64,000 nucleotides of DNA. Origin: Acidobacteriaceae bacterium (lineage in GTDB: Bacteria > Acidobacteriota > Terriglobia > Terriglobales > Acidobacteriaceae). The notes under the pieces are model-generated. The model did no database searches, was not told where the DNA came from, and worked only from the letters and a program-made list of their open reading frames with translations. The stretch lies in contig PLHW01000030.1 in NCBI GenBank assembly GCA_003139095.1, positions 513-64,512 of the forward strand, given 5' to 3'. The translations under genes and the position numbers were made by a program. Below, in pieces: positions 20,614 through 40,921 of the stretch; positions within the stretch are counted from its first letter, which is position 1; the number at the start of each line of letters is the position of its first letter.

Positions 20614-22125
20614 TCAGCGTACGGCCGCCGCGATCGGCTCACTGGGAGCGATGCTGGAAACTGGTTTCAAATCCTTGTCGATGGCGGAAATCAAAACATC
20701 GAAACGTTGTTCAAAGGCGTCGCGATTGCGATTCGCGCTGCCGCCGACCCACAGCACGAGCTGGCCGGTTTTTTCATCGCGCACCGGCACGGCCCAGAAA
20801 CGCATGTGTATCACGTAGAAGACGAAGGCCAAGCCAACCCCGAGCAGCACGACGCCCGTCCACACGCCCCATTGTCCGGGCTCGTGGGAGACCTGAAGGC
20901 CGGTGAAATGGCCGAGCTTAAGATCTTTGGGTTCGAGCAGATAAGGAGCCTTCGAGTTATCGGCGACCTCTTCGAGCGGAGGGAACCAGACATCGAAGCT
21001 CTTTCCGCTGGCTTTAGAGGTAACGACGAGATGGGCCGCCGGACTGCCCATTTCATTGGAGCGCTTGTAAACCTGGCCGTCGCGGACGGCATAGTCAGTG
21101 AAGAACTCGGCGAAGCGGACGGTGGTGTCGGCGTCGAGGTCGGCGGTGTCGCCGACGGTGAAGGCGATGAGCTTCGGCTGAGCGGGAACGGGAGGCGGCG
21201 CGCCGGGACCGGCGGAATTGAAGCTGGCATTGGGCGTCGCGGTCAGGATCAGCTTGTCTACTTTGCCGTTCTCGCCGTAACTGGACTGGTAGAAGCGGAC
21301 GCTGTTGTAGATCAGAGGGTCGTTGACGACGATTTCTTTGGCTTTCACGTCCTGGCCGTTGTCGACGATCGCGAGCTTGGACCACCACTTTTTGGGAGTG
21401 CCGTCCTTATAGTTCTCCTGGCCGGCGGAGTCGCAGCGGATGGAGAAGGGCATGGGACGAGTGCCACCGTCGCGCAATTCGACGAGGTTGGAGGTCTGGC
21501 CTTCATCGAGCCGAATGTAACCGCGCCAACCGTAGACGCCATCGACGATCCAGCCGAAGAAGATCAGCAGCAGGCTGGCGTGGACGATGTAGACGGCCAT
21601 CTCGGAGATGCGGTGACGCTCGGCGAAAATCGCGAAGTGATCCTCGCGGATGACGCGCTCGGGCTTGAAGCCCAGCGAGTTGAGGGCGCGCTCGGCCGAG
21701 ACGAGGCCGGTTTCTTCGTCGGGAATCGGGATGGTTTTTTGCGGATGCAGAGCGCGGCGGAAGCTCGAGTCAGGATATTTGTAGGGACGCGAATAGTAGC
21801 GCCAGGAATTGGGAAAACGCTCGATGGAGGCGGCGATGATGCAGAGGCTGACCAGGACCATTAAGCCGAGAAACCACCAGGCGTGAAAGACGTCGGTCAT
21901 GCCGGTGGCATCGAGAAAGCGCAGAGCCTGCGGAGAGTAGGCGCGCTGCATGTCGTCGGGTTCGGTCATGGGGCGTTGCAGAATGACGGTGCCGGCCGCG
22001 GCGAAAACCACGACCAGAATCAGAAGGACGACGCCGGTTTTGATGGAAGCAGCCGTTTGCCAGATTTTGCGCGCCAGGGATTTTCGAGGCGCGCTGGTGG
22101 AAACGGTCTTTGGACTAGTGGCCAT
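20614..22125 (-). CDS. resB: cytochrome c biogenesis protein ResB (System II)
   Basis: ResB-like N-terminus, [32 protein letters not shown], large soluble domain, C-terminal TM; adjacent to ccsA. Confidence 0.94.
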
Positions 22126-22428: not shown

Positions 22429-22868
22429 AGCGCCCGTGATTTGGACTACACACGCAATTCCGAAACTGGGTTCGAATGCTTTTATTGCAGGTGGGGAATG
22501 CGGACTCATTGTGCATCGATTCTTTCGGCACGCGTTTCGCGAATGTGGCCTGCGACTTCGCGTGCAAAAGGCCGCGTTCCGGTCGACAAGAACTTGCGCC
22601 ATTTCACGGTTTACGGTGTGCGAGAAGGCCCATCCGAAATAATTGCTGGCGCTGGTGCATCCCTGCGCCCAAGGCGCTATGATCGCGGAGACGTTCTAAT
22701 CCAAGCACTTAAACCGCCGTTGAAAATTATTGCAGCACGTGGCAAAGCGGCGAGAAGCGTGCATGAGCACACTCGGAGAATGACGTGAACGGCCTCCCCC
22801 AATTCAATCGCCAAGGTCATATTGCGCACCCTGTGAAGTTCATCCACCCGTGGACGCGGATCCATTCG

Positions 22869-24311
22869 ATGATGGACGCAGGCCCGGGCTTTTTGCTGAA
22901 ATTCTTTTTTGTGTCGTGCCTGGCGCTGGTTTGCAGCGGGCGCGGATTCGGCGCCGTGCATCCGGTCCCGCTTGAAGCCAACACCGATGCGGCGAAGTGC
23001 CTGGAATGCCACGAAGACAAAAGCAAGGGCAAGTTTGTGCACTCCGCGATCGCAATGGGGTGTTTGACCTGCCACGAGATTCGTGTGAACAAAGACATCA
23101 CGCGGGTCAAGCTGACGACCACGACGCCGCAGTCGCTATGCCTCACTTGTCACGCCGATAAAGACGCGGCGACGCTGAAGGGGACGGTTCATCCTCCGGC
23201 GGTGCGGGATTGCATCAAGTGTCACGATCCCCATGAGTCGGACAACAAGAACCAGTTGCTCAAGCCGGAGAGCGGAGAAAAGGACAAGAACCTGTGCCTG
23301 GACTGCCATACCCAGGGGCTGAATGTTCCGGAAAAAGGGAGCCGCCATGCCGCGCTCGACATGGGTTGCGATGCCTGTCACGTAACCCACAAGGTGGGCG
23401 AGGTGGGCAAACTGGAGTTCGACAAACATCTGACCAAGGACGTACCCGCGCTGTGCGTCGACTGCCACGATGTTAAAGACGATGCATTGGTGAAAGCCCA
23501 CCAGGGGCAGCCCTTCGCGACCGCCAACTGCATTCAATGCCACGATCCGCACCAGTCGGCGCAGCCGAAGCTGATGCAGAAGTTCCTCCACAATCCGTTT
23601 GAATCGAAGGCCTGTGATACGTGCCACTCGCCGGCCAAGGACGGAAAGGTGGTGCTGACCAACAGCGACACGAAGGCGCTCTGCGTAACCTGCCACAGCG
23701 ATGAGGCAGAGAAAATCGACAAAGCGAAAGTGCCGCATCCGGGCGCTCAGGGCGAATGCGTCGCGTGCCATAATCCGCATGCCGGCAAGACTCCCGGGTT
23801 TTTGCAGCCCGACCCGGTCAGCGCGTGCCTGGCTTGCCACTCGGACCAGGCCGATCAGTTCAAGAAAGCGCATTTACACCAGCCCGCATTCCGGCAGGCG
23901 TGCGCGATTTGCCATGAACCGCACGGCGGCGACAATGACCACCTGCTGCGCACGAAGAAGACGAACGACCTTTGCCTGGAGTGCCACGGGCCTGAGGCGC
24001 CGCAGCCCAAGAAGCTCGAATCCGAGCACCTCATCACGATCTTTAACGGCGCGGTGAAGTTGCCCGAGGACTATTTCTCCAAGAATAAAGTCGTGGTGCT
24101 GCCGCTGAGATATGGCCGCGGACACCCGGTGGAAGGCCATCCGGTGAGTGACGTGGTGGATCCTTCCGACATCACGAAATTGAAAGCGCAGATCAACTGC
24201 CTGTCGTGCCATCAGCCGCATGCCTCGGCTCAACCCGATCTGCTGGTGAAGGACCAAGCCAACAACATGGCCTTCTGCTCGACCTGTCACAAAGATCTGA
24301 CGCGGAGATAA
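22869..24311 (+). CDS. 16-haem c-type cytochrome
   Basis: 16 CXXCH motifs counted in the translation; hydrophobic N-terminus; start taken at MMDAGPGF within an ORF opening at GTG 22785. Confidence 0.92.
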   Translation: MMDAGPGFLLKFFFVSCLALVCSGRGFGAVHPVPLEANTDAAKCLECHEDKSKGKFVHSAIAMGCLTCHEIRVNKDITRVKLTTTTPQSLCLTCHADKDAATLKGTVHPPAVRDCIKCHDPHESDNKNQLLKPESGEKDKNLCLDCHTQGLNVPEKGSRHAALDMGCDACHVTHKVGEVGKLEFDKHLTKDVPALCVDCHDVKDDALVKAHQGQPFATANCIQCHDPHQSAQPKLMQKFLHNPFESKACDTCHSPAKDGKVVLTNSDTKALCVTCHSDEAEKIDKAKVPHPGAQGECVACHNPHAGKTPGFLQPDPVSACLACHSDQADQFKKAHLHQPAFRQACAICHEPHGGDNDHLLRTKKTNDLCLECHGPEAPQPKKLESEHLITIFNGAVKLPEDYFSKNKVVVLPLRYGRGHPVEGHPVSDVVDPSDITKLKAQINCLSCHQPHASAQPDLLVKDQANNMAFCSTCHKDLTRR

Positions 24312-25576
24312 TGAGGAGAATGATTATGGCGTTTACTGGCGCAAGGTGGATGCACAACAGAAAAATTGTTTTCGGGATTGCAGTCGTCCTCTTGCTGGCG
24401 ATTGCGTCGCCGGCGGCTTTTGCGAAAAAGAAAAAGCAGGACGCGACGCAAACGAAAAAAGCGCCGGTCATTGATTATTCCAACATCGTTTGGCCGAATC
24501 CGCCGGCGATTGCACGCATCAGGTACCAGTCGTTTTACGCGGCCGAGAAGATTTCGCAGGTCGAGGAAGGCACACAGACCAAGAAGGCGAAGTGGATGGA
24601 TCGCCTCGCGGGTACGCAGCCCGCCAGCGAGAGCACAAAGGTTCTTTTCCAACTCGGCGAGCCCTACGGCATCGCGGTTGACTCCAAAAACAATCTTTAT
24701 GTCGCCGACCAGAAGGTGGGAGCCATTTTCATCTTCAACACAGAAACGCGCGAGGTTGAGCTGATCAAGAACAAGGTGCACGCCCACTTTGTCCGCATCA
24801 TCGGTCTCGCCATGGATGACGGCGATCGCCTGTTTGTCTCCGATCCGGGACTGCGGCATGTGCTGGTTTTCGATGCGACGCACAAAGCGACAGACGTGAT
24901 TACGGACGGTATGGTCGAGCCCGGCTCGCTTGCCATCGACCGCGAAAATCGGTTGCTTTACGTGTCGGACGTGAACCAGGATCAAGTTTTGGTGTATGAC
25001 GCCGACACCCTCAAACTCAAACGAAGGATGGGGACGGTGGGGAAGAACCATGAATTAACGAGTCAAGGGGACTTTGCCAAGCCGTCGGGGCTGGCGGTTG
25101 ACTCGGAAGGCAACCTATATGTGTGCGATACGCTGAACGACCGGATTGAAGTGTTCGATGCGGATGGGAAGTTTATGTCGGCGTACGGGAAGAACGGGGA
25201 TGGGCCGGGATACTTTGCGCGACCGAAAGGCATTGCGATTGATGGAGATGGACACATCTGGGTGGCGGACGGGATGCAGGACCGGGTGCAGGTGTTCAAC
25301 AGCCAGTGGCAACTGCTGATCACGTTTGGCGGGCATGGGCTGTTACCCGGGCAGTTTCAAGGACTTGTGCAGATTGCGATTGACAAGAACAACCGGGTGT
25401 TTACGTCGGAGATCTATCCGGGGCGGGTGCAGCAGTTCCGGTATGTGACTGATGCGGAAGCGGATAAGCTGAAAAAAGAGCGCGAAGAGCAGTTGCAGAA
25501 AAAGGCGGGCGGAGGGCAGAAGGAAGTGCAGCCGGTGGCGGCTCCGACGGCGAGCGCGGAGACGCCGAAGAGCTGA
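24311..25576 (+). CDS. NHL-repeat beta-propeller protein, exported
   Basis: Signal-like N-terminus; repeats LGEPYGIAVDSKNNLYVADQ, FAKPSGLAVDSEGNLYVCDTLNDRIEVFD, FARPKGIAIDGDGHIWVADGMQDRVQVF; overlaps upstream stop. Confidence 0.9.
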   Translation: MRRMIMAFTGARWMHNRKIVFGIAVVLLLAIASPAAFAKKKKQDATQTKKAPVIDYSNIVWPNPPAIARIRYQSFYAAEKISQVEEGTQTKKAKWMDRLAGTQPASESTKVLFQLGEPYGIAVDSKNNLYVADQKVGAIFIFNTETREVELIKNKVHAHFVRIIGLAMDDGDRLFVSDPGLRHVLVFDATHKATDVITDGMVEPGSLAIDRENRLLYVSDVNQDQVLVYDADTLKLKRRMGTVGKNHELTSQGDFAKPSGLAVDSEGNLYVCDTLNDRIEVFDADGKFMSAYGKNGDGPGYFARPKGIAIDGDGHIWVADGMQDRVQVFNSQWQLLITFGGHGLLPGQFQGLVQIAIDKNNRVFTSEIYPGRVQQFRYVTDAEADKLKKEREEQLQKKAGGGQKEVQPVAAPTASAETPKS

Positions 25577-25929: not shown

Positions 25930-26181
25930 GGATCATTTCCCCCAGATCTGGCGGGCTCGGCTCGATGTTGCAAAATTCATCGATTGGGGGATGTGTAGGT
26001 GTTTCAATTAGTTACAAAATCGCTTTTCGGGATGCACTTTGGTGCCAGTTCGGACTGGCGAGTGCAATACACAAGGGCGAGGGGCGACTGCAAGGTGCCC
26101 AGGCACGGAGCGGTTTAGGGCCTAAGCCTCTAAGAGTTCGATTTTGAAACAGCTGCATACATCTATGGAGGTTTTATCTAT
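25930..26181 (+). promoter_or_regulatory. conserved 5' leader of tetrahaem cytochrome 1
   Basis: Shares ordered blocks with 27176-27431: GGATCAT, GTTGCARAATTCATC, ACAAGG..GGCGAC, GGGCCTAAGCCTC, CTATGGAGG. Confidence 0.6.
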
Positions 26182-27099
26182 ATGAAGAAAGCGATGTTGC
26201 TCGTACTGTTTATCCTGGCACTGGCGGGATTTGTGATGGGGCAAGCATGGACATCACCAACCGACGTGTTGGGCGCTCACCAAAACCAAGGCCGTGGCTG
26301 CGCGGGCTGCCATGCTCCGCATAGCGGCTCGTTCGGTTCCGGTCACGGCGGTGCATCTGATGCCGGTACCTACGCATTGTGGGGACAGGACGCCAGCCCA
26401 CTTTATGGCAAGACAGTTGCGTTCGGCGACAGCGGCAAATACGTTGAAGTTCTGCCCAACGGAATCGCCACTGGAAGCATTGAAGTTGGCGGCATTCTGC
26501 TCTGCCTGAGCTGCCATGACGGCAACCTGACCCAGTCCAACATGATGCAGAATTGGTCTTATGAACAACAGATCGGCTTGCTGACCAACACTACCTACGG
26601 CAGCCAGAAGATCCCAACCCTGCTCGGCAACGACGGAACGACCGCCGGCAATTACACCAACGATCACCCGGTGGGCCAGAACGCCACGATCAGTTCCGGC
26701 AGCGGCCTGGTTTGGGCCAATAATACCTTTACCGTAACCCCTGGCACCCCCTACCAGCAGTTCGTAAACAACTATGGCTGGCCGGCTCTGGCGCCTGGAA
26801 AGTGGTCTTCTCCGTGGGGCATCAACGGCTCCGGTAAGCCCTATGTGGTTTGCACCACCTGCCACAACCAGCACGTGATGACGGTATACACTTCGAGCGC
26901 GGCTAGCCCGATCAAGAACGACGGCGGCGGATATTTCTACGCCACCTACTTCTTCGTCAACGGCCCCTACAACCCGAACCTGCAAGGCAAGCTCAGCGCA
27001 GGCCAGGCAGCCTCGACGACTCAGTTCTGCCGTCAGTGCCACTTCGGCGAAGCCAACGAAGCCAACAACACCATGAACATCCCGACGGTCTTCCAGTAG
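26182..27099 (+). CDS. secreted tetrahaem c-type cytochrome (paralog 1)
   Basis: MKKAMLLVLFILALAGFVMGQ signal peptide; CAGCH, CLSCH, CTTCH, CRQCH. Confidence 0.93.
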   Translation: MKKAMLLVLFILALAGFVMGQAWTSPTDVLGAHQNQGRGCAGCHAPHSGSFGSGHGGASDAGTYALWGQDASPLYGKTVAFGDSGKYVEVLPNGIATGSIEVGGILLCLSCHDGNLTQSNMMQNWSYEQQIGLLTNTTYGSQKIPTLLGNDGTTAGNYTNDHPVGQNATISSGSGLVWANNTFTVTPGTPYQQFVNNYGWPALAPGKWSSPWGINGSGKPYVVCTTCHNQHVMTVYTSSAASPIKNDGGGYFYATYFFVNGPYNPNLQGKLSAGQAASTTQFCRQCHFGEANEANNTMNIPTVFQ

Positions 27100-27140
27100 A
27101 CCTGAAGGTGTAGCGAATAACGTAGTAGGCAAGAAATTGC

Positions 27141-27197
27141 AACTGGGGGATATGGACCAGCCAGGTTAAGAAGGCTGGATCATATCTCCCAGTTTTG
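27141..27197 (+). terminator. intrinsic terminator after tetrahaem cytochrome 1
   Basis: AACTGGGGGATATGgaCCAGCC-aggttaagaa-GGCTGGatCATATCtCCCAGTT followed by TTTGCC. Confidence 0.8.
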
Positions 27198-27431
27198 CCT
27201 TTGAATCCAGCCTGTTGCAGAATTCATCCAGCAACGAATCCCTCCATAGAATCAGGAGTCTGCGTGCGCTCAGGCGACTCCCATCTTCAGCCCGGTTTCG
27301 GATTGGAATTTGCATTGACAAGGTCGCTGAGGCGACCGCGATAGAACGTCCTCCCCCAATCTCGGCCCAGGGCCTAAGCCTCCGCAGTCAAGGTAAGAGT
27401 CGCACACATCCTATGGAGGACTTAAGACTAT
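27176..27431 (+). promoter_or_regulatory. conserved 5' leader of tetrahaem cytochrome 2
   Basis: Homologous block order to 25930-26181; GGGCCTAAGCCTC lies about 50 nt before the ATG in both. Confidence 0.6.
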
Positions 27432-28346
27432 ATGAAGAAGGCGATGTTGCTTTTACTATTCGTCCTGGCAGTGGTGGGTTTGATGATGGCGCAGAACTGG
27501 ACATCACCGACCGACGTGCTGGGCGCACACCAAAACCAGGGGCGCGGCTGCGCGGGCTGCCATGCTCCGCATAGCGGCTCATTCGGTTCCGGTCACGGGG
27601 GATCATCCGACACCGGTGACTATGCATTGTGGGGACAGGACGCAAGCCCACTGTACGGCAAGACGGTAGCGTTCGGCGATGGTGGCCGCTACGTCGAAGT
27701 TCTGCCCAGCGGAATTGCGGCCGGTGGCTCGGAAGTCAGCGGCATTCTGCTCTGCCTGAGCTGCCATGACGGCAACCTGACCCAGTCCAACATGATGCAG
27801 AATTGGTCCTATGAACAACAGATCGGCTTGCTGACCAATACCACGTACGGCAGCCAGAAGATCCCAACCCTGCTCGGCAATGACGGCACGTCGGCGGGCA
27901 ACTACACCAACGATCACCCGGTGGGCGTAAATGCCACCATCAGCGCGAGCACGGCAAACGGGCTGGTATGGGCGAACAACACGTTCACTGTCACAGCGGG
28001 CTCTCCCTATGCCACGTTTCAATCAAACTATGGTCTTCCGGTGCTCCGGATCGGCCGTAGCTTCTCCAATATCAACAGTGCAGGTCAGCCTTACGTGACC
28101 TGCCGCACATGCCACAATCAGCATGTGATGACGGTGTTCGCGGCGAGTTCGAGCAGCCCGATCGTCGGCAATACAACGGGATACTATGCGACCTACTTCT
28201 TCATAGCCGCCCCCTATAACCCGAATTTGCAAGGCAAATTGACTGCCGGCCAGGCAGCCTCCACGACCCAGTTCTGCCGTCAGTGCCACTTTGGCGAGGC
28301 GAACGAGGCCAACAACACCAATAACATCCCCACGGTCTTCCAGTAG
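27432..28346 (+). CDS. secreted tetrahaem c-type cytochrome (paralog 2)
   Basis: CAGCH, CLSCH, CRTCH, CRQCH; close paralog of 26182-27099. Confidence 0.93.
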   Translation: MKKAMLLLLFVLAVVGLMMAQNWTSPTDVLGAHQNQGRGCAGCHAPHSGSFGSGHGGSSDTGDYALWGQDASPLYGKTVAFGDGGRYVEVLPSGIAAGGSEVSGILLCLSCHDGNLTQSNMMQNWSYEQQIGLLTNTTYGSQKIPTLLGNDGTSAGNYTNDHPVGVNATISASTANGLVWANNTFTVTAGSPYATFQSNYGLPVLRIGRSFSNINSAGQPYVTCRTCHNQHVMTVFAASSSSPIVGNTTGYYATYFFIAAPYNPNLQGKLTAGQAASTTQFCRQCHFGEANEANNTNNIPTVFQ

Positions 28347-28371: not shown

Positions 28372-28404
28372 GGGGGAGAGAAAGTTTCTCCCCCTTCTTT
28401 TTTG
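28372..28404 (+). terminator. intrinsic terminator after tetrahaem cytochrome 2
   Basis: GGGGGAGA-gaaagtt-TCTCCCCC followed by ttcttttttt. Confidence 0.9.
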
Positions 28405-28499
28405 GGAACGAAGATTGCTTAACGATGAGTATCGGAATATTTAGAATCGAGCCGTTTGGTTTGGATGATGGAATGATCCCAGGCTCGGATGAAACGAGG

Positions 28500-29543
28500 A
28501 TGGCTATGAAACGAAAGGTCTTAATCTCCGCAATTTTGCTCGGGGCCGTGATCACGGTCTCGGCCCAGGTCTCGTCCCACGCGCCCACTGCGGTGGCGTC
28601 GGCTGCGTCAGCGCCAACACCTTCCGCGCAAAGTTCCCCACTGGTGGTGACGGATAAGCCGGTGGCGCGGGTGAATGGCGCGGTGCTGACCGACCGGGAT
28701 CTGCTGCGGGAGATGTTTTCCATTTTCCCTTACGCCCGCCAGCACAATGGCTTTCCGAAGGGACAAGAGGCCGCGATCCGGCAAGGCGCGCTGGAGATGA
28801 TCATATTCGAGGAGTTGGTTTACCAGGAGGCGGGACGGCGCAAGCTGACGATACCGGCCGCCAAGATTAACCAGGCGGAGGCGGAGTACAAAAAGCAGTT
28901 CCACAGCCCGGATGAATACGACGCATATTTGAAGTCGGAGATGGGCGGCTCGGAGCAGAAGCTGCGGGAGACGATCAAGCGGTCGCTGCTGATCGACCAA
29001 GTCTTGAAGACCGATGTGGAGGCGAAGTCCGCGGTGACGGCGGCCGAGGTGCAGGCGTTTTATATGAAGAACGCGGCGAAATATGCGCAGCCGGAGATGT
29101 ACAGTTTCCAGAGCATTTCGGTGGTGCCGCCGCTGAAGCCGACGGCGGAGCAGGCGAAGCAAGCGAAAAAGGCCGCCGACGAGGCGCTGCAAAAGGCCAA
29201 AGCCACCAAGAGCTACGAGGATTTCGGTTTGCTCGCCGAGGCAGTTTCGCAGGACGATTTCCGGGTAAATATGGGCGACCACAAAGCGGTGGAGAAGGAC
29301 AAATTGCCGCCGCAGATCGTGAAGGCGTTTCAGGGAATGCAGGCGGGGCAGGTGAGCGGGCTGATCCAGATCGAATCGGCATACACGATTGTGCGGCTGA
29401 ACGCGCATAATCCGGCGCGCAAGCAGCCCCTGGCGGAAGTGAAAAACCAGTTGAAGGACGAGTTGCAGAAAGAGAAATACGAAAAGCTGCGGTCAGGGCT
29501 GGCCAAGCAGCTTCGGGCCAAGGCGAAAGTTGAAGTGGGATAG
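28500..29543 (+). CDS. parvulin-type (PpiC/SurA) peptidyl-prolyl cis-trans isomerase, exported
   Basis: Signal-like MKRKVLISAILLGAVITVSAQ; SurA-like N-domain VARVNGAVLTDRDLLREM; degenerate parvulin domain ending in QLKDELQKEKYEKL. Confidence 0.82.
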   Translation: MAMKRKVLISAILLGAVITVSAQVSSHAPTAVASAASAPTPSAQSSPLVVTDKPVARVNGAVLTDRDLLREMFSIFPYARQHNGFPKGQEAAIRQGALEMIIFEELVYQEAGRRKLTIPAAKINQAEAEYKKQFHSPDEYDAYLKSEMGGSEQKLRETIKRSLLIDQVLKTDVEAKSAVTAAEVQAFYMKNAAKYAQPEMYSFQSISVVPPLKPTAEQAKQAKKAADEALQKAKATKSYEDFGLLAEAVSQDDFRVNMGDHKAVEKDKLPPQIVKAFQGMQAGQVSGLIQIESAYTIVRLNAHNPARKQPLAEVKNQLKDELQKEKYEKLRSGLAKQLRAKAKVEVG

Positions 29544-29762: not shown

Positions 29763-29881
29763 GGTCGGCTTAAGTCATTGAAAACAATTGGCGTTATATT
29801 TCTCGGTTCCTCGGCATTTGGCATGGTTTGTGCCTTCTATTTAGTAAGTCTTATCACGGTTGGGGATGTTCGCAGGAAGGC

Positions 29882-31762
29882 ATGGGTCTTGTGGGTGTGG
29901 CGAAACGCATCGTCGGGGTGGGGGCAGCCGGAATTGGGGTGCTGATCAGGCTGCTGTTGCTTGTAGGGACCTCCCAGATTGCGGTTGGTCAGGTTGCGCC
30001 TTCGGCGCTGAACATTGGGGAAAATACCAAACTGAACGCGGGCGGCATGTTCACCTTCGGCTACGCCGGCGATTATGGCGACGCGATTCCTTCCAGCCAC
30101 GGCCTGACGTGGGGGCTGGATGGGAAGATGAGCGGGTACTATTACAACCCGAATTTCATCTCTTTCTCGGCCACTCCCTATTACAACCAGTCGCGCTCGG
30201 ATTCGAGCTACCAGTCGTTGACCGGGGCCAGCGGGATCGACGGCACGGCGAACTTTTTCTCGGGAAGCAATTTTCCGGGATCGGTGAGCTACCGGTACGA
30301 CCGGAACACGAGCGGAACGTTGGGACTGGTGGGGCAGCCGAACTTCACGACGATCGGGACGGGCAAGGGGTTCGCGGTCAACTGGAGCGCGCTGCTGCCG
30401 AATTGGCCCACGTTGTCAGTGGGATATTCGCAAGGGAGCGGGAGCGGGAATATCTACGGGACGAGCGAGGAGACGAGTTCGAGCAATAAACTGTTCAACG
30501 TTCATTCGAACTATCAGATCGTTGGGTTCCGGCTGAATGCGTTTTTCACGCGCAACACCATGAACTCGCTGTATCCGGAGTTTCTGACCGGGCAGGGAGA
30601 GTCGGTCGAGGACTCGACGGGACAGAACATCGGCTTTGGAGCACAGCACAGCCTGCCGATACACGGCTCGTTTTACGCGACCTTCAACCGCGCCTCCGCC
30701 GACAGCAGTTACGGGGGAACAAACCAGAGCGCGAACACTTCGAGCTATACCGACGATAGTGAAAGCGCCGGGGCGAGCTTCCATCCGACCAAGAAGTGGG
30801 GATTCAATGTGGCCGAGAACTACACCAGCGACCTGAGCGGGTACCTGACACAGAGCCTGGGTCTGACGGGCGGAGTGCAGCCGGTCAACCTGGGATCGGG
30901 GTCGCATTCGACGACTTTTGGCGGAGGCACGAGTTATCAGTTTACGAATCTGCTCACGGGGACGGCGCAGGCAACGCACTACGATCAGTTTTATTTTGGG
31001 CAGAGTTACACGGGAACGTTTGTGAGCGGGACAGTGAATTACGCGAAGCGGCTGCTGGATATGTTCAGCTTCTCGGGAACGGTGCTGGACGCGAGCAATG
31101 GCAAGGACACGAACGCGATTGGGTTCATCGGGAATGTGAATTACTCGCATCGGATCAAGGGATGGCAGACGGCCGGGCAATTCAGTTATGCGCAGAATGT
31201 GCAGACGCTGCTGGTGACGTATACGACATCGTATTACAGCTACAGCGCGAACCTGCGGCGCCGGATTCGTCCGGGATGGCAGTGGACGGGCGCGTTTAAT
31301 GGAACGCACAGCGGGCTGACGAATTATTCCGGAACGACGAGCCACGGCGAAGGATACTCGACCTCGCTGGGGTCGCGGGTGTTTACACTGACGGGGACGT
31401 ATTCGAAGTCGGTGGGGCTCTCGCTGCTGGGCGGAGGGACGCTGCAAGGACTGCCGCCGACGCCCGGGGTGACGGATTTTGTGACGTTCAGCGGAGATAG
31501 TTATGGGGGCGGCTTCTCGGTGCAGCCGCTGCGGCGGATGGTGCTTTCGGGGAGTTACAGCCGGTCGCTCAGCAACACGATAGCCCAGACGCTCTCCCAC
31601 AACGACACGGAGGTTTATAACGCGCAGTTGCAGTACCATTTGAGGAGGATCGGACTCCAGGCGGGGTACACGCGCTTTTCGCAGGGGATCAGCGCGCTGG
31701 GAACGCCGCAGAGCACGACGTCATACTTTGTTGGATTCTCTCGATGGTTCGACTTTTTCTAG
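29882..31762 (+). CDS. outer-membrane beta-barrel (porin-like) protein
   Basis: Alternating amphipathic beta pattern, Gly/Ser/Tyr rich, no Cys in the mature region, C-terminal strand GFSRWFDFF ending in Phe; lies within a cytochrome locus. Confidence 0.82.
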   Translation: MGLVGVAKRIVGVGAAGIGVLIRLLLLVGTSQIAVGQVAPSALNIGENTKLNAGGMFTFGYAGDYGDAIPSSHGLTWGLDGKMSGYYYNPNFISFSATPYYNQSRSDSSYQSLTGASGIDGTANFFSGSNFPGSVSYRYDRNTSGTLGLVGQPNFTTIGTGKGFAVNWSALLPNWPTLSVGYSQGSGSGNIYGTSEETSSSNKLFNVHSNYQIVGFRLNAFFTRNTMNSLYPEFLTGQGESVEDSTGQNIGFGAQHSLPIHGSFYATFNRASADSSYGGTNQSANTSSYTDDSESAGASFHPTKKWGFNVAENYTSDLSGYLTQSLGLTGGVQPVNLGSGSHSTTFGGGTSYQFTNLLTGTAQATHYDQFYFGQSYTGTFVSGTVNYAKRLLDMFSFSGTVLDASNGKDTNAIGFIGNVNYSHRIKGWQTAGQFSYAQNVQTLLVTYTTSYYSYSANLRRRIRPGWQWTGAFNGTHSGLTNYSGTTSHGEGYSTSLGSRVFTLTGTYSKSVGLSLLGGGTLQGLPPTPGVTDFVTFSGDSYGGGFSVQPLRRMVLSGSYSRSLSNTIAQTLSHNDTEVYNAQLQYHLRRIGLQAGYTRFSQGISALGTPQSTTSYFVGFSRWFDFF

Positions 31763-31791
31763 AAGCGAATTCCGATACAGCTGAGGGTGGA

Positions 31792-32967
31792 ATGGCCGGG
31801 GAGGCGACAGTCAGAACGCTGCACGCACGGCGGAGGAGAGGCTCGCGTGCGCGCGCATGGATGCTCGTCGCCACCGCGCTCCTGTGGATGGGCGTAGGCA
31901 TAGCGTGGGGATCGTCGAAGCGCGCGAAGGAGACGCTGGGGGCGCTGGCGCCGCCGGATTTGCTGATGGATGGCGGCCGAAAACTGACGTGGGAGAAGAG
32001 CTTCAGCCTGGAGCGGGAAGTCAAGCCGAAGCGAAGTTTTTGGACGCGGGTGGTGGACGTGATCGCGGGAGAGCCGGATTTTCATTATCTGGTCAGTCCG
32101 TACAGCGTGGTGACGGATTCGCGGGGACGGATCATTGTGAGCGACACGGCGGCGGTGGGGGTTCACATATTCGATTTTCAGGCGCAGAAATATAAATTTC
32201 TGACGCGGCGTGATGCGGGGAAGGATCCGATGGTCGCGCCGCAGTGCGTGACCGTGGATGCGCAGGACAATATTTATGTGACGGACTCGCAGACGGGGAA
32301 GATTTTTGTGTTTGACGCGAACGGAAAATACCGGCGGGTGATCGGGAGCTTGAAAGGCGGCGAGGGATATTTCAAGCGGCCGACGGGCATCGCGGTGGAC
32401 GCGGCGGCCGGGCGGATCTATGTGACGGACACGCTGCGCAACAAGATTTACATGATGGACATGCAGGGCAGCGTGTTGCAGGTCATCGGGAAGGCGGGGA
32501 CGGGGGACGGGGAATTTAATTTTCCGACCGAGCTGCGGCTGAACGGGCAGGACCTGGTGGTGGTCGACGCCATGAATTTCCGCGTGCAGGTGCTGGACCG
32601 CAGCGGCAAGTTCGAATACGCGATCGGCAAGATTGGCGATGGCGCGGGATGGATCTTCCGGCCGAAGGGGATTGGATTCGATTCCGAAGGCCACCTGTAC
32701 GTGGTCGATGGGCAGTGGGGGATCGTGCAGGTATTCGATCACGAGGGGCGCCTGCTGTATTACTTTGGCGGGCGCGGCACCGGCAACGGACAGTTTCAAC
32801 TGCCGGCGGGATTGCAGATCGACAATCATGACCGCATTTATGTAGTGGACTCATTCAACCGCCGGGTACAGATTTTTCATTATTACGGGGTGGGGCCGGA
32901 CGCGAGGCCCGACACGAGGCCGGACGCGAGGCCCGACGCGGAGCCCGACACGAGGAAAGACCCATGA
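31792..32967 (+). CDS. NHL-repeat beta-propeller protein
   Basis: VAPQCVTVDAQDNIYVTDSQTGKIFVFD, FKRPTGIAVDAAAGRIYVTDTLRNKIYMMD, FRPKGIGFDSEGHLYVVDGQWGIVQVFD; ATGA overlap with next gene. Confidence 0.9.
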   Translation: MAGEATVRTLHARRRRGSRARAWMLVATALLWMGVGIAWGSSKRAKETLGALAPPDLLMDGGRKLTWEKSFSLEREVKPKRSFWTRVVDVIAGEPDFHYLVSPYSVVTDSRGRIIVSDTAAVGVHIFDFQAQKYKFLTRRDAGKDPMVAPQCVTVDAQDNIYVTDSQTGKIFVFDANGKYRRVIGSLKGGEGYFKRPTGIAVDAAAGRIYVTDTLRNKIYMMDMQGSVLQVIGKAGTGDGEFNFPTELRLNGQDLVVVDAMNFRVQVLDRSGKFEYAIGKIGDGAGWIFRPKGIGFDSEGHLYVVDGQWGIVQVFDHEGRLLYYFGGRGTGNGQFQLPAGLQIDNHDRIYVVDSFNRRVQIFHYYGVGPDARPDTRPDARPDAEPDTRKDP

Positions 32968-34925
32968 GGCGCATCCAGCAGACCCAGGCTCTTTGCATCG
33001 CAACGGCCGTGCGGCTGATGACCGCAGTGTTGATGGCTGCCCTGACGGTGGGCGCGATGTATGCGCAGCAGCCGCCGGCGGACGTGCTGGGAATGCACAA
33101 TCTGACGCAGGCGAGCGGAGCGTCGGTTTATTCGCAGGGTAGTCTGGGCTGTACCTTCTGCCATGCGCCACACAGCGGGCTGGGCGGGATATCTCCGCTC
33201 TGGAACCAGAAATATTCGAACGCGTCGTACACAACGTACAACAGCACTACGTATGTAGAGCAGGGGAATCCGAAGCCAACGCTGGGAATTACGAGCAGCT
33301 TGTGTTTGAGCTGTCACGACGGCACGGTCGGCGTGGGGCAGTCGCAGGCCTACGGGCCTCTGCCCGTGGTGGGCTCGATGAACGGGATGGATTCGTTTGG
33401 AACGACGCTGACGGGATCGCATCCCTTCAGCCTGGTGCTGCCGATGAAGGATGCGCCGAACCTAGTGGCAACGCTGGTATCGCAGTGCAAGACGGCCGAT
33501 CCGACTGGAGCCGTGAAGCTGATCAACTGCAATATCGAATGCACGAGCTGCCATAGCCCCCATGTCCAGGGGATCGACCAGATTGCCCAGATGTTCCTCG
33601 TCCGGGACAGCTCGAATGCGCAGATGTGCTCGGCGTGCCACGATCCGAACCGGGTCGTGCAGGGACAGATCAACCCGCTGGCAGGATTTGCGAACAGCAT
33701 TCACCAGACCGCGACCAACGCGGTTTCGCCCAGCGCGCACGTGGGCCCGTACGCAACCGTGGCGGTCAATGCGTGCGAATCCTGCCACATGAACCACGAC
33801 TCCGTGGCGCCCGCGCGATTGCTGCGGCCGGCCACCCCGGCAGCAACGGGCTACGATTCGGTGACGCAGAGTTGCATGACCTGCCACGAGGGCGGTACCT
33901 ACCTCTCGCCGCAGCCGCTCAACATCATGGCCGAACTGGCCAAGACGAGCCACCCGCTGCCCTCGGGCAACAATTTTCATGACGCGGCCGAGGCCCCGCT
34001 GCTCAACAATAACCGTCACGCCACCTGTGTCGACTGCCACGATGCTCACGCCGGAAATCCCGAAGTGCAATTCACGCAGCCCCCGGCCATCCGCCCGCCC
34101 CAGCAGGGCGCCACCGGCATCAGCGCGCTCGACGGCGTGACCCCGATCATTCCTGCGGTCAACCAGTATGAAACCTGCCTGCGCTGCCACGGAACCAGCA
34201 CCGGCAAACAGCGGCTGCTGATCTACGGCTATGCGCCCATCCGGGTAGTTTCGGCGCCCGATCCGCTGAATGTGATTCCGGAGTTTGCGCCGACCGCGAC
34301 CTCCAGCCATCCGGTGACGCATACGAGCCAGTCGCCGCTGCCGGAGCCGAGCCTGCTCACCAACATGCTCACGTTGACGGGACAGGCATCGGGACGTCTG
34401 GTGGGGAACCAGATTTTCTGCATGGATTGCCACAACAGCGATGACGACCGGGAATTCGGCGGGACGGGGCCGAACGGTCCGCACGGTTCGGTGAACATGC
34501 ACTTGCTCGAGCGCAATTACCAGTTCAGCCAGGCGGCCCTCCCCGGCGGAACCGTGACCAACCTGTTTCCAAATCCCGACACCAGCCCGGCGGGGCCCTA
34601 TTCGATGTGCGCCAAGTGCCACAGCCTGACCTCGATTTTCAACAACCAGAGCTTCAACCAGCACAACCTGCATTCCTACCAGTACGGATTTACTTGCTCG
34701 GTGTGCCACACCGCGCATGGCATGGGAGCGACCTCTCCCTACATTACGGGAGAGCAACTGGTGAATTTCGACGCCAATGTCGTGGGACTGAACAATGGAG
34801 CCCCGATCGCGTATAACCACGCCACCAATACCTGCACCCTGCAATGCCACAACTACGACCACAACGCAGATGGCAGCGTGACACCCGCGACAGGACAGGG
34901 CCTGAAAAAGAAGCCAGGAAAATGA
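32964..34925 (+). CDS. multihaem c-type cytochrome (11 CXXCH plus one CX3CH)
   Basis: CTFCH, CLSCH, CTSCH, CSACH, CESCH, CMTCH, CVDCH, CLRCH, CMDCH, CAKCH, CSVCH and C-terminal CTLQCH. Confidence 0.93.
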   Translation: MRRIQQTQALCIATAVRLMTAVLMAALTVGAMYAQQPPADVLGMHNLTQASGASVYSQGSLGCTFCHAPHSGLGGISPLWNQKYSNASYTTYNSTTYVEQGNPKPTLGITSSLCLSCHDGTVGVGQSQAYGPLPVVGSMNGMDSFGTTLTGSHPFSLVLPMKDAPNLVATLVSQCKTADPTGAVKLINCNIECTSCHSPHVQGIDQIAQMFLVRDSSNAQMCSACHDPNRVVQGQINPLAGFANSIHQTATNAVSPSAHVGPYATVAVNACESCHMNHDSVAPARLLRPATPAATGYDSVTQSCMTCHEGGTYLSPQPLNIMAELAKTSHPLPSGNNFHDAAEAPLLNNNRHATCVDCHDAHAGNPEVQFTQPPAIRPPQQGATGISALDGVTPIIPAVNQYETCLRCHGTSTGKQRLLIYGYAPIRVVSAPDPLNVIPEFAPTATSSHPVTHTSQSPLPEPSLLTNMLTLTGQASGRLVGNQIFCMDCHNSDDDREFGGTGPNGPHGSVNMHLLERNYQFSQAALPGGTVTNLFPNPDTSPAGPYSMCAKCHSLTSIFNNQSFNQHNLHSYQYGFTCSVCHTAHGMGATSPYITGEQLVNFDANVVGLNNGAPIAYNHATNTCTLQCHNYDHNADGSVTPATGQGLKKKPGK

Positions 34926-36457
34926 ACGTGCAAGATCGCCGGGTACAAGCGGTGCAGGTGGGAGCGCTGGCGCTGCTGTTTGCGGCGTTTCCGCTGCTGG
35001 AGGCGGTGCAATGCCGCTCGCTCAGCAGCCTCACGAACTCCGATATTTGGTGGCATTTGAGCACGGGCCTCTGGATGCTCCAGCACCACGCGCTGCCCCA
35101 CACCGGAATTTTTTCGCAGGCGGCGGAGCGCCCGTGGATCGCCGCCAGTTGGCTGTTCGATCTGAAGCTGGCAATTTACTACCGGCTGCTCGGGCTGCGC
35201 GCGATTCCGATGTGCGCCATGTTTTTTAAGGCTGGGCTGGGAGTTGTGACATTTTTGCTCGCGGGCGGCCGCCGCGGAAATTTTTGGGGTGCGGTCGCAA
35301 TTTCGGTGATTGCGCAGTATGTGCTCGGCGGCCTGCCCGCGACGGCGCTCTATGGTTCCGTCATCTTCCTTGGTGTCGAGCTGCTGTTGTTGCTGGAGAG
35401 CCGGCAGCACGCCCAGATGCTGTGGTGGCTGGCGCCTTTGTTCCTCGTGTGGGCCAATGTCGATGTGAATTTTGTCTACGGCCTGGGGGCGCTGGTGCTG
35501 TTTGTGTTCGCCGAGGTCGTCTCCGCAGCGCTTCAATCCGCAAGTACCGGCGCAGGCTTTACCGCAGCCCTCACGCGCTCCGCCACTCAAAAGAAGCGTG
35601 CATTCCTGGCGGGCGCTCTTTGCTTTGTGGCCACGCTGTTTACGCCGTATTTCTATCGTCCTTACCAGGTGTTTTTTGCCACTGCGTGGAACGGCGCGAA
35701 TGCGTATTTGCCGGATCACAAGGCGCTCGGATTCCGCCAGCCGCAGGATTACGTTTTGCTGCTCTTTGTGATGGCGGCGTTTCTGGCCCTGGGGCTTCGG
35801 CGCTCGCGAAATTTATTTTTGATTGCCGCGCTGGCGGCCGGCGCGGGGCTTTCGTTTTACTCGCAGCACGACGCCTGGCTGGTTACCCTGGCGGCCGTAG
35901 CAGTCATGGGTGAGACGCTGGCCGGGGCAGTGCATCCGGCCGAGGCGCGAGATGCAGAGACTCGAGATGAAGCAGAGACTCGGGATAAAAAAGATGCGAG
36001 CGCGAAGTACCCGGCCGGCGGTCGCACCATTTGGATTGCGGCCGCTTTGACGGCGGTGGCGCTCGTGGCCGCCGCCGCGGCGCTGGTTCCGCGCTCTGGC
36101 CGCCTGATGACGAAGGTCGCGGAGAGCTATCCCGTGGCAGCCGCCGACTCGATTCGCTCGCATCGGATGGCGCAACCAATTTTTAATGCCTTCGAGTGGG
36201 GCGGCTTTCTAACCTGGTATCTGCCCGAGTTTCCGGTGGCCATTGACGGGCGGGTCGATCTCTACGGAGACGATTTCATCATTGAATATTCGAAGGTGAT
36301 GAATGCCGATGTAAGATACACGGAGTTTCCGGCGCTGGCGGGGGCGCAGACAATAGTTTTGCCGCGGACGGCGATCATGGCGCAGGCGATGGCGACGGTG
36401 TCGGGGTATAAAGTGGCTTATCAGGACGATGTGGCCGTGGTAATCAGCCGCGAGTAG
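34922..36457 (+). CDS. GT-C-like polytopic membrane protein
   Basis: Many TM segments, NSDIWWHLSTGLWMLQHHALPHTGIFS, EFPVAIDGRVDLYGDD; ATGA coupling to the upstream cytochrome; paralog of 39323-40921. Confidence 0.7.
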   Translation: MNVQDRRVQAVQVGALALLFAAFPLLEAVQCRSLSSLTNSDIWWHLSTGLWMLQHHALPHTGIFSQAAERPWIAASWLFDLKLAIYYRLLGLRAIPMCAMFFKAGLGVVTFLLAGGRRGNFWGAVAISVIAQYVLGGLPATALYGSVIFLGVELLLLLESRQHAQMLWWLAPLFLVWANVDVNFVYGLGALVLFVFAEVVSAALQSASTGAGFTAALTRSATQKKRAFLAGALCFVATLFTPYFYRPYQVFFATAWNGANAYLPDHKALGFRQPQDYVLLLFVMAAFLALGLRRSRNLFLIAALAAGAGLSFYSQHDAWLVTLAAVAVMGETLAGAVHPAEARDAETRDEAETRDKKDASAKYPAGGRTIWIAAALTAVALVAAAAALVPRSGRLMTKVAESYPVAAADSIRSHRMAQPIFNAFEWGGFLTWYLPEFPVAIDGRVDLYGDDFIIEYSKVMNADVRYTEFPALAGAQTIVLPRTAIMAQAMATVSGYKVAYQDDVAVVISRE

Positions 36458-36598: not shown

Positions 36599-38143
36599 AT
36601 GGACTCTGGTTACAAGACGGATGGTTCTCTGGCGTTGGCATCTTCCGGCACTGCGGGCGGCGAGATTGCCTTGGTGCCTCCCGCCGCCGTCTCGCCCTGG
36701 TGGCGCGTGGGGGACTTCGCCGTCCTGGGTGTGTGGATCTCCGTGGTGGGCTTCGTCCTTCCCTACCATGAGAAGTGGGCCGACGAGGCCCAGGCCTGGC
36801 TCATCGCGCGCGATCTCGATCTCAGAACCATCTGGTTTCATGAGCTGCGCTACGAGGGCTCTCCGGGGCTGTGGCACACAATTTTGTGGGTCGCCCAGCA
36901 CGTGTTTCATGCGAAGTATGACGCGATCGGCTACATCGGAGCGGCAGGCGCACTCGCCGGAGTGGCGCTGCTGATTTTTGCGGCGCCCTTCCCGCGCTAT
37001 ATCCGGTGGCCGCTGGCCTTCACCTATTTCATGGTCTATCAGTATGCCGTGATCGCCCGGCCGTACACGCTGCTCCCGCTCCTCGCCTTCGCGGCCGCCG
37101 CGCTCTTCAAAGATCTCAAGCATCCCGAGCGCATCACGGCAGTCCTCGTGCTCCTGGCAAATTTGAGTTTGCACGGAACCATCCTCGCAGGCTGCCTCGG
37201 CCTCGTCTATCTCATCGACGCCTGGCGCGCCCGCGAGCGGCTGGATGCGCGGGTGCAGCGGAAGTACTGGATTTGCATCGGTGCGATGGCGGTCGTGTTT
37301 CTGTTTTTGTTTTTGATCCTCAAGCCGACCCCGGATGTGGAAGAGTTCGCCGTGAAGAAATACCTCCCGCCACCAGTGGACGCGAGTGGCCATGTGATTA
37401 CGGCGTCAATGAAATTTGTAGCGACAATGTCAGGGGCGTTTCTGGACTGGTTCGCGCCGTCTGTCGTGTTTGTCTTACTTGCGGGGGCGTGGTGCTTCAT
37501 CCGGCGAAGGTTTCTGGCATTCGCATTGCCGGTCGCGCTGCTGGCGTTCTTGTATTCGGAGATTCACGGCTACCCGCACCACCATGGGGTCCTATTTGTT
37601 GCCGCAATTACGGGGCTCTGGATCGCATGGCCCACGCCGGAGGAAGTGAGCAAATCTAATTTGATCAGGCGGCGGGCGCTACAGGGCATGATAGGGCTGC
37701 TTCTATGCCTGTGCGCGGTCAATCTCTGGGACGCTGCGGTGGTCATCGACCGCGAATACAAATATCCTTACAGTGGCGCTCCGGATGCCGCGAGGTATTT
37801 GAGATCGGTCGGGGCCGACCGGGGTCCGATGTTCGGGTTCTTGATGGGCGTGGTCGCGGTGCAGGCGTACTTTGACCAGCACCTCTTTGCCAATATTCCG
37901 ACATCGTATTTTCATCTCGGATTTCCCCGAACCGGCGTGGATCTGAACGTGGACGAGTTGTATAGGATAAGACCCGAGTACATCGTTGCGTACACAATCG
38001 ATCCTCAAATGATGCTTGAGACAGGACTGCCTGAGTTGACCTCGCGCGGCTACGAGGTTGTCCACATTTCGGACGGGTATTACATGTACAAGAGGGCGGT
38101 CTGGCAACGGGAAGTCTATTTTATCCTGCGGCGGGTGCGGTAA
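36599..38143 (+). CDS. GT-C/PMT-like polytopic membrane protein
   Basis: EKWADEAQAWLIARDLD first-loop acidic motif, about 10 or more TM segments. Confidence 0.7.
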   Translation: MDSGYKTDGSLALASSGTAGGEIALVPPAAVSPWWRVGDFAVLGVWISVVGFVLPYHEKWADEAQAWLIARDLDLRTIWFHELRYEGSPGLWHTILWVAQHVFHAKYDAIGYIGAAGALAGVALLIFAAPFPRYIRWPLAFTYFMVYQYAVIARPYTLLPLLAFAAAALFKDLKHPERITAVLVLLANLSLHGTILAGCLGLVYLIDAWRARERLDARVQRKYWICIGAMAVVFLFLFLILKPTPDVEEFAVKKYLPPPVDASGHVITASMKFVATMSGAFLDWFAPSVVFVLLAGAWCFIRRRFLAFALPVALLAFLYSEIHGYPHHHGVLFVAAITGLWIAWPTPEEVSKSNLIRRRALQGMIGLLLCLCAVNLWDAAVVIDREYKYPYSGAPDAARYLRSVGADRGPMFGFLMGVVAVQAYFDQHLFANIPTSYFHLGFPRTGVDLNVDELYRIRPEYIVAYTIDPQMMLETGLPELTSRGYEVVHISDGYYMYKRAVWQREVYFILRRVR

Positions 38144-38239: not shown

Positions 38240-39172
38240 TCAGTAATTCTGGAGTAAGGTAGGAATCGTGTTCGTGTTATTCGCTTCGTTGGACTCGGTG
38301 AAGTGGCACTGCCGGCAGAACTGGGTTGAAGAGACGGCCAGGGGATTGGAAGCGTTAACGCTGCGCCCGGGTATGTAAGGTCCGTTCACGAAGAAGAAAG
38401 TGGGATACGATCTCCCCCCGCCATCGCCCGCAATCTGGCTCTCCCGCGACGACACATACACCGTCATCACGTGCTGGTTATGGCACGTAACGCACAGCAC
38501 GAAAGGCTGTCCCGAGGGAGTGATGCCCCACGGGTTGGAGTGACGCCCCGGCACCAGCGCGGGCCAACCGTAGTTGTTCATGAATTGCCAGTAGCGACTG
38601 CCCGGAACTACAGTGAACGTATTCCGCAGCCACACCAATCCTTCCCCGTCGGGGATGACCGCGTTCGGTCCCACCGGATGATCATTGGCGTAGGTGTCGG
38701 TGCCCAGCAGAGTCGGAATCGGCTGTCCCCCAAACGCCGCGCCCGGCAACAGGCCGATTCGCTGTTCGAAGGACTGCCCCACCATCATGCTCGGCGGAGT
38801 TAAATTCCCGTCATGACAACTGAGGCAGATCAGAATGCCATTCACCTCCCGGTTGCTGACCGAGATATTGCTGGGAAATACTTCGACGTAGCGTCCGCCG
38901 TCCCCGAACGCGAAGGTTCGGCCATAAAGAGGAATGGTGCTTGGACCCCACGGCGCATGTTCGACTTCGTCCGCCCGTGTACCGGGCGCGGCGCTCGATG
39001 CGCCAGACGGGGATGCGCCGAAGGATGTGTTGGCCGACGCCGTGTGACAGGTCAGGCAACCGCGCCCGCCGACATTGTGCGGGCCCAGCAGTTCAGTAGA
39101 GCCGGGCAGTTGCGCGCTGGCCAAACCGGCCAGCAACATGACAAAGAGAATGAGAACGCCTGTCTTTTTCAT
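38240..39172 (-). CDS. secreted tetrahaem c-type cytochrome (paralog 3)
   Basis: CLTCH, CLSCH, CVTCH, CRQCH; signal-like MKKTGVLILFVMLLAGLASAQ; shares HNQHVMTVY and FCRQCHFTESNEANN with paralogs 1 and 2. Confidence 0.92.
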   Translation of the reverse strand: MKKTGVLILFVMLLAGLASAQLPGSTELLGPHNVGGRGCLTCHTASANTSFGASPSGASSAAPGTRADEVEHAPWGPSTIPLYGRTFAFGDGGRYVEVFPSNISVSNREVNGILICLSCHDGNLTPPSMMVGQSFEQRIGLLPGAAFGGQPIPTLLGTDTYANDHPVGPNAVIPDGEGLVWLRNTFTVVPGSRYWQFMNNYGWPALVPGRHSNPWGITPSGQPFVLCVTCHNQHVMTVYVSSRESQIAGDGGGRSYPTFFFVNGPYIPGRSVNASNPLAVSSTQFCRQCHFTESNEANNTNTIPTLLQNY

Positions 39173-39322: not shown

Positions 39323-40921
39323 CTAGCGCCGCGCGAATACGGTGGCGATTTCGTCATGATAGATGAGGTCGAACCGCGGGTCGATGGTCAGCACTTTCGC
39401 CAGCGGCAGCTTCGAGTCCAGCAGCACGAACCCGGCGTGGTCAAGATAGGGGTCCGTCTTGTACGAGTCCTGGGCGCTTTCCGAGCTGTAGAAGATTTTG
39501 TCCAGGTCGTCGCCGTAAAGATCGTTGCGCCCGTCGATGGCGACGGGAAAGTCCGGCATATACCACATCAGAAATCCGCCCCAGTTGAGGTTGTTGTAGA
39601 TGGGGCCACGCACCGGATTGCGCCGCAGAAAATTGATGGCGTTGACCGGATAGTCGGCGCTGATGGCGCGATCCAGGCCGCGCTCGTTGAAGTCGACGGC
39701 GCCCGCGACGAAGATGAGGCAGACGGCGACGGCGGCGGCGATGGCAAGATTTTCCAGCCAGGCCTGCCGCGACGAGACAGCCGGCTCCTGCTCGCGCTCA
39801 GACTGGGAGCGGCTTTCGAGCGCACGCGCGCGAAACGCTTCGGCGATGCAGGCGGCGGCGGGCAGGCAGATGAACCATGCGTCGCGCATGGTGCGGAAGG
39901 CGACAACGACGGCGGCCGTCAGCAGGGCGAGTTTGAACAGATCGATACCAGGCGGCGCGTCGGACTGCCGCGGACTTGAGTGCCGCGCTCTCCCCAGATT
40001 CGCTTGCCAGCCCAGCGCAAAGAATCCGGAGGCGGCCAGTAAGAGTTCCAGGAACTCGCTGGCGTAACGAAAGCTTAGCGGTTGGAGTTCGACGATGACC
40101 GAGTATGTGAACTTAGCCTTCGAGTATTCGAACACGACGACGTACGGATGGTAGAAGTACGGCCCCAGCAGGGTGGCGAAGACGCAAGCGGCGAAGATGG
40201 CGATGAGCCGCGCGTTCTGCGGCGGCGACTTCTCCCCGCCTGTCAGATCCAGCGCCGACAAGAGTGTCCGCGCCACACGGGGCGGTGCGACGCGGGCCAG
40301 CGCGGAGAGAAGCGTCCGCGCCAAGCTAACCGACATGAACAGGCCGACCAAGAACAATCCGTAGATGAACTGGATGTGCAGATTGGCCCAGACAAAGAAG
40401 ATGAGCGGAAGCCAGTAGAGCTTTTTCAGGTCGGCGCCGCGGCCCGCCTCCAGAAGCAGCGTGAGCGTCACCGCGAAAAGCGCGATGGAAAAAAAGAACG
40501 GGCGCGGCGTGCCGTTGAACAGGAACGACCAACAAACCACGCCGGTCAGAATCCAGGCGATCCAAAACCGGCCCGACAGCCGCAACAGCATCCAATAGAT
40601 GGCCAGCGCCACGAGCAGCGTGAGCAGCGTGCCAAACACGCCGATGCCGATCAACCCGAACCAGGCGTAGGCGCGCGACAGAAGCACTTCGTATCCCCAG
40701 CTATACGCAACCCATGGCCGTGTGGCCGCGGTGCGGGAGAGAATGCCGGTGTGGGGAACGGCGAGGTGCTCCACAATCCAGTCCCCGACCTTCAAATGCC
40801 ACCAGATGTCGGAGTCAATGACGAAGTACTTGAGGCGAAGCGCGGCTGTGCCGACAACGATAAAAAGCGCGGTGAGCGCGCCGAGTTGGAGCGACCGGAT
40901 GTGGGCAAGCGATTTAAGCAT
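39323..40921 (-). CDS. GT-C-like polytopic membrane protein, paralog of 34922-36457
   Basis: SDIWWHLKVGDWIVEHLAVPHTGILSRTAATRPWVAYSW and DFPVAIDGRNDLYGDD; contains in-frame ARTLLSAL repeat. Confidence 0.72.
   Translation of the reverse strand: MLKSLAHIRSLQLGALTALFIVVGTAALRLKYFVIDSDIWWHLKVGDWIVEHLAVPHTGILSRTAATRPWVAYSWGYEVLLSRAYAWFGLIGIGVFGTLLTLLVALAIYWMLLRLSGRFWIAWILTGVVCWSFLFNGTPRPFFFSIALFAVTLTLLLEAGRGADLKKLYWLPLIFFVWANLHIQFIYGLFLVGLFMSVSLARTLLSALARVAPPRVARTLLSALDLTGGEKSPPQNARLIAIFAACVFATLLGPYFYHPYVVVFEYSKAKFTYSVIVELQPLSFRYASEFLELLLAASGFFALGWQANLGRARHSSPRQSDAPPGIDLFKLALLTAAVVVAFRTMRDAWFICLPAAACIAEAFRARALESRSQSEREQEPAVSSRQAWLENLAIAAAVAVCLIFVAGAVDFNERGLDRAISADYPVNAINFLRRNPVRGPIYNNLNWGGFLMWYMPDFPVAIDGRNDLYGDDLDKIFYSSESAQDSYKTDPYLDHAGFVLLDSKLPLAKVLTIDPRFDLIYHDEIATVFARR
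40251..40325. repeat. two copies of the GCG(G/C)RGA..GTCCGCGCC palindromic element inside a CDS
   Basis: agcgccgacaagagtgtccgcgccacac (40251-40278) and cagcgcggagagaagcgtccgcgccaa (40299-40325). Confidence 0.75.

Follow-up and report, generated by a model that had tools for sequence, protein, structure and literature searches.

Tandem OmcE-type tetrahaem cytochromes in a conserved acidobacterial gene cluster: candidate subunits of an electron-export apparatus

Described cytochrome filaments and conduits

The cytochromes OmcE and OmcS each have a haem whose ligand is a histidine from the neighbouring subunit (PMC9473688, PMC12954529), and in the OmcE filament the inter-subunit-ligated haem was reported as haem 2 (PMC12203936). 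Long-range electron transfer by cytochrome filaments is disputed even in Geobacter (PMC11077965). The oet/OmcKL clusters join a porin, multihaem cytochromes, a six-bladed propeller and a PPIase with putative filament cytochromes (PMC10553843, PMC5539420). In the MtrCAB systems of Acidobacteriia group 5, found in Bryobacterales and unclassified Acidobacteriia, a tetrahaem cytochrome was predicted to be periplasmic (PMC8805035). A 2013 peat metagenome indicated Acidobacteria as iron reducers, and OmcE, OmcS and OmcZ were not found in it by annotation and TBLASTX (PMC3669403).

The locus compared here with these systems lies in a 64 kb window, the whole stretch of DNA analysed, from a member of the Acidobacteriaceae. 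An earlier note on this DNA had described a tandem of tetrahaem cytochromes; the present analysis adds the conserved gene cluster around it, the leader RNA and a 12-haem cytochrome with an OmcE-like domain.

The tandem cytochromes and their haem ligands

The two tandem paralogs of about 305 residues, reported earlier as secreted and tetrahaem, were recovered as open reading frames whose products were 81% identical in amino-acid sequence:

26182-27099, forward strand: cytochrome A, predicted secreted tetrahaem protein of OmcE type, 305 aa
27432-28346, forward strand: cytochrome B, tandem paralog of A, 304 aa, with the haem and histidine pattern of A

Four CxxCH motifs were present in each of A, B and a third paralog in the window, C (at residues 40, 108, 224 and 283 in A), as in all full-length family members. 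A single hydrophobic segment, N-terminal and accompanied by no other membrane segment, was found in both A and B, which fits Sec export and agrees with their proposed secretion. Apart from those of CxxCH, exactly four histidines were conserved across an alignment of 38 members, one per haem (33, 47, 162 and 231 in A), and the sole exception was paralog C, which was devoid of His47. The histidine set was common to 64 sequences.

At the DNA level, A and B were 90-97% identical at approximately 26482-26661 versus 27732-27911, and 43-75% identical beyond, a pattern for which gene conversion, or strong constraint on the region of haem 2, may be responsible.

Relationship to OmcE

The earlier note had assigned these proteins to the OmcE class by haem number, leaving homology unproven. 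A direct phmmer search of A against the PDB gave no meaningful match, and the family HMM alone reached 9yuq, a relative of OmcE (7tfs), weakly at E 0.18. Profile-profile comparison of the family with OmcE, of which most of the sequence was recovered from PDB alignments, plus 9yuq gave a probability of 97.2 (E 2.9e-11). The family-OmcE score was 75.5; none of 20 shuffles that retained every CxxCH exceeded 45.1, and the reversed control gave 14.1. Membership in the OmcS type was not indicated, the family profile matching OmcS at a probability of 7.8. OmcE and the family have in common the motif order H..CxxCHxPH..LW..CxSCHDG..NDHPV..CxxCHxxH..CxxCH, and the family presents the four distal histidines in OmcE order, including those of CxxCHxPH and NDHPV, with C lacking that of CxxCHxPH.

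When the CxxCH letters were masked, the direct family-OmcE probability dropped to 16.8%, and the direct case is therefore moderate. This loss of most of the direct score, together with the fact that Paired_CXXCH_1 was the only Pfam family clearing its cut-off for A, would suit membership in a general doubled-CXXCH family whose match to OmcE is haem-motif convergence only. That explanation is very improbable, given the shuffles that kept CxxCH, the failure of the OmcS control, the identical order of CxSCHDG, NDHPV and CxxCHxxH in both groups, and a bridge provided by the 12-haem cytochrome encoded nearby. The profile of its N-terminal domain matched OmcE at a probability of 99.1 and the A/B family at 99.2, with E about 1e-19 on each side. 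A combined profile of the family and this domain retrieved from the PDB 9yuq (9.8e-10) and 7tfs (1.5e-7), the next match being at 0.044; the PDB match thus needed the bridge domain. By sequence, we place A and B with good confidence among the OmcE-type proteins, as divergent members, the evidence being moderate directly and strong via the 12-haem domain, so that class membership is now supported by profiles and not by haem number alone.

A and B resemble OmcE of Geobacter sulfurreducens (7tfs) in motif order, signal peptide and four haems. They differ in mature length (about 285 aa, with extra segments, versus about 210), in a leader type of their own, in a direct match visible by profile only, and in distribution, the family having been found here only in Acidobacteriota and nearly always in Acidobacteriaceae. 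The best PDB match of the combined profile, 9yuq_N (a putative multihaem cytochrome c, 16 chains), has the motif order of the family and is shorter than A and B, at 218 aa with signal.

The surrounding gene cluster

A and B were flanked by the following genes:

20617-22125: ResB-type cytochrome c maturation gene, upstream of the cluster and present in many related loci
22785-24311, forward strand: 16-haem DmsE/MtrA-related cytochrome, probable periplasmic partner
24293-25576, forward strand: six-bladed beta-propeller with NHL repeats (tentative start; ORF listed from 24206)
28425-29543, forward strand: SurA-like peptidyl-prolyl isomerase (ORF; true start probably near 28500)
29828-31762, forward strand: putative outer-membrane beta-barrel, conserved, proposed from sequence character only
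31744-32967, forward strand: second NHL-repeat beta-propeller
32964-34925, forward strand: 11-12-haem cytochrome with an OmcE-like tetrahaem domain in its N-terminal 200 aa or so (33042-33668)

The order 16-haem cytochrome, NHL propeller, tetrahaem cytochrome, SurA-like PPIase and barrel-like protein, continuing with the second NHL propeller and the 12-haem cytochrome, was conserved and was seen in most loci of sufficient length; in one subgroup, the 16-haem and first NHL genes stood at the opposite end of the block. The genes that would make up a porin-cytochrome conduit (16-haem cytochrome, 12-haem cytochrome and a putative barrel, so assigned from sequence character only) belong to this conserved set, which makes a conduit cluster a possible assignment. 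The OmcE-like domain of the 11-12-haem cytochrome was complete and resembled OmcE more closely than A and B do. Three large hydrophobic proteins with no Pfam match (34922-36457, 36599-38143 and 39323-40939) were encoded between or beside the cytochromes, and the presence and orientation of their genes varied among loci.

The likeness to the oet/OmcKL clusters, known from Desulfobacterota (syntrophic sulfate reducers), is one of gene inventory. The putative filament cytochromes there are OmcX/OmcS, whereas here the small cytochrome is of OmcE type and an OmcE-like domain forms the N-terminus of the large one. With the MtrCAB systems of Acidobacteriia group 5, the locus has in common a 16-haem cytochrome related to the DmsE/MtrA type, a likely barrel and a nearby tetrahaem cytochrome; it differs from them in that the putative barrel had no Pfam match at E 1, and the tetrahaem protein of those systems differs in its predicted periplasmic location and in its host groups.

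Third paralog, copy number and distribution

A paralog absent from the earlier note was found about 10 kb downstream of A and B:

38240-39172, reverse strand: cytochrome C, third paralog, about 60% identical to A

C has lost the CxxCHxPH histidine, which is invariant elsewhere in the family, and occupied a long, fast-evolving branch of the tree (branch length 0.73 versus 0.06 for A), with all four CxxCH kept in an intact reading frame. In the related subgroup with the 16-haem and first NHL genes at the opposite end, a second, inverted tetrahaem gene also followed the 12-haem gene, as C does, and its product retained the CxxCHxPH histidine.

A scan of public genomes recovered 30 relatives. All belonged to Acidobacteriota, the majority under the label Acidobacteriaceae, and almost every one came from a metagenome bin; Occallatibacter savannae was the one named strain. 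By profile search, the gene was present in 76 of 301 genomes of the source's taxonomic family and in 7 of 247 genomes across the phylum, six of these seven belonging to the same family and two of the seven being weak matches. This patchy distribution was counted against the explanation of A and B as parts of a filament apparatus. A plasmid origin was searched for, with no match.

Since most genomes of the genus carried one copy, A and B would appear to have arisen by a local duplication that took in the gene together with its leader and its terminator. The single copy typical of the genus, like the long branch of C and its loss of an otherwise invariant histidine, could indicate that not all copies are meaningful, the tandem being a recent duplication without function and C a decaying gene. 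We regard this as improbable, since B retains all eight haem histidines, the promoter signature, the ribosome-binding site and the terminator, and C retains its four CxxCH in an unbroken frame.

Promoter, leader RNA and transcription unit

The elements preceding and following the two genes were:

26049-26066, forward strand: GG-N10-GC signature of a sigma54-like promoter before A, conserved across 16 leaders
26080-26131, forward strand: leader RNA of A, with helices P1 (AGGGGC/GCCTCT), P2 and P3
26164-26171, forward strand: Shine-Dalgarno sequence TATGGAGG of A
27141-27194, forward strand: terminator-like hairpin after A, arms 27141-27154 and 27181-27194, z -3.6
27295-27391, forward strand: promoter signature and leader RNA of B, P3 degenerate
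27297-27314, forward strand: sigma54-like promoter signature of B
27412-27419, forward strand: Shine-Dalgarno sequence TATGGAGG of B
28372-28400, forward strand: intrinsic terminator after B, textbook hairpin, z -3.6

The 16 leaders presented a common TTCGG...TGCA block, the GG-N10-GC spacing and a TTGCA-like -12 element. By itself the GG-N10-GC pattern is not a rare one, with 0.85 occurrences expected per window; what counts is that it keeps its place across the leaders. RpoN is encoded in the same genome, and a promoter of sigma54 type is supported. TATGGAGG occurred three times on the forward strand of the window, two of the occurrences being those before A and B.

Downstream of the signature, 93.7% of the cells of the P1-P3 element were paired, which none of 500 shuffles reached. 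Covariation comprised five pairs changed on both sides, a modest count, from 16 related sequences, which 6 of 500 shuffles reached. The ribosome-binding site, too, was complementary to the 3' strand of P1, GCCUCU (96.4% paired and well conserved, with no covariation), so the P1 fold and the helix covering the ribosome-binding site would be mutually exclusive. Moreover, 12 bases, GGCCTAAGCCTC, were invariant among the leaders. Since single-sequence folding of the leaders was no better than shuffles, the RNA claim draws on comparative evidence only. A covariance model of the leader, built from sequences that included those of A and B, matched exactly these two places in its own genome (76.7 and 67.6 bits). 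Nine other genomes of the genus had a single match each; in those of the nine that were fetched as loci, the site lay ahead of the tetrahaem gene.

Rfam searches returned no regulatory family for the window stretch at E 1 and no regulatory match for the leaders of four relatives at E 0.5, and the leader was rejected as a known riboswitch. A whole-genome search for c-di-GMP-I had no match, but its controls were likewise without match. Two Rfam microRNA matches of chance level overlapped the terminator hairpin of A. The segments 26047-26139 and 27295-27391 are put forward as a sigma54-like promoter followed by a cis-regulatory RNA that is a candidate for a new family, encountered in the genus only ahead of this gene; we interpret it as a putative gene-specific translational regulator.

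The terminator of B (28372-28394) reads GGGGGAGAGA-AAG-TTTCTCCCCC-TTCTTTTTT, and its position and stem sequence were similar in most close orthologs. After A, the hairpin is long and interrupted and followed by a short T run only, giving a strong stem and a weak tail. A hairpin with T run followed 23 of 28 A-type orthologs, versus 124 of 2000 random windows (6%), and terminator-like hairpins after other cluster genes numbered 0-4 cases each. The separate unit is thus a conserved property.

For the transcriptional design proposed in the earlier note, these results uphold the homologous leaders, the strong ribosome-binding site ahead of both genes and the monocistronic arrangement. The claim of strong intrinsic terminators holds fully for B and for the stem of A, the T run of A being short. 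The proposed high output was not borne out: codon adaptation of A, B and C (0.51-0.54, where ribosomal proteins had 0.56-0.82 and the other genes of the window 0.46-0.69) was ordinary and was rejected as a sign of it, and the leader looks regulated, not constitutive.

Filament or monomer

In OmcS the histidine donated to the neighbouring subunit is His16, which sits in a CxxCHxxH motif, as does His47 of A; His47 is therefore the candidate donor. By this analogy, it would probably ligate the haem of a neighbouring subunit and thereby produce a polymer. Filament formation by A and B is judged likely. AlphaFold models of the single chain without haem were poor (pLDDT 54.2 and 53.8, from alignments of 38 and 64 sequences), and a fold search with both low-confidence models (pLDDT 54) gave no significant match.

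Alternatively, A and B could have the OmcE fold and be monomeric or dimeric, acting as soluble periplasmic or surface carriers from the conduit to an acceptor, with no filament. Four haems and four conserved distal histidines also satisfy an intramolecular bis-His protein, codon adaptation is ordinary, and the same domain is used within the 12-haem protein, so that an OmcE-like domain alone does not imply polymers. OmcE, the closest solved relative of known assembly, nevertheless forms filaments in which a haem is ligated across the subunit boundary (PMC9473688, PMC12203936), and the conserved separate transcription unit suits a subunit required in its own amount. The carrier explanation is, on balance, unlikely, though it deserves serious weight.

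The reading towards which we lean, with some reserve, is that A and B are small extracellular OmcE-type subunits of an acidobacterial electron-export apparatus, separately transcribed and polymerising; it builds on the homology, ligand set, gene neighbourhood and conserved terminator observed above. Electrons would pass from the periplasmic 16-haem cytochrome through the beta-barrel to the extracellular 12-haem cytochrome with its OmcE-like domain, and from there along a chain of A and B subunits to an outside acceptor; both this path and the extracellular location of A and B are what we infer. Folding and assembly would fall to the PPIase and the NHL proteins, and one distal histidine, probably His47, would ligate the neighbour's haem, as in OmcE and OmcS. 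The sigma54-type promoter, an RNA leader that could hide or expose the ribosome-binding site, and the terminator would allow the amount of subunit to differ from that of the machinery.

A more specific version, which we hold as doubtful, places OmcE-type filaments on a dedicated base. The OmcE-like domain of the 12-haem cytochrome, at the outer membrane, would dock the first subunit by inter-subunit haem ligation, an RNA switch of a kind not described before, on the sigma54 transcript, would set the subunit supply, and C, without the donor histidine, would cap or end the chain.

Implications for soil acidobacteria

Acidobacteria are dominant in many soils and peats, and a divergent OmcE type visible to profiles only could account for part of the OmcE gap in peat. 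The locus is testable, including in Occallatibacter savannae, and the OmcE-like domain on the larger cytochrome of the cluster makes the junction between filament and outer-membrane conduit directly testable. These soil bacteria, too, may make protein wires, as Geobacter does with OmcE.
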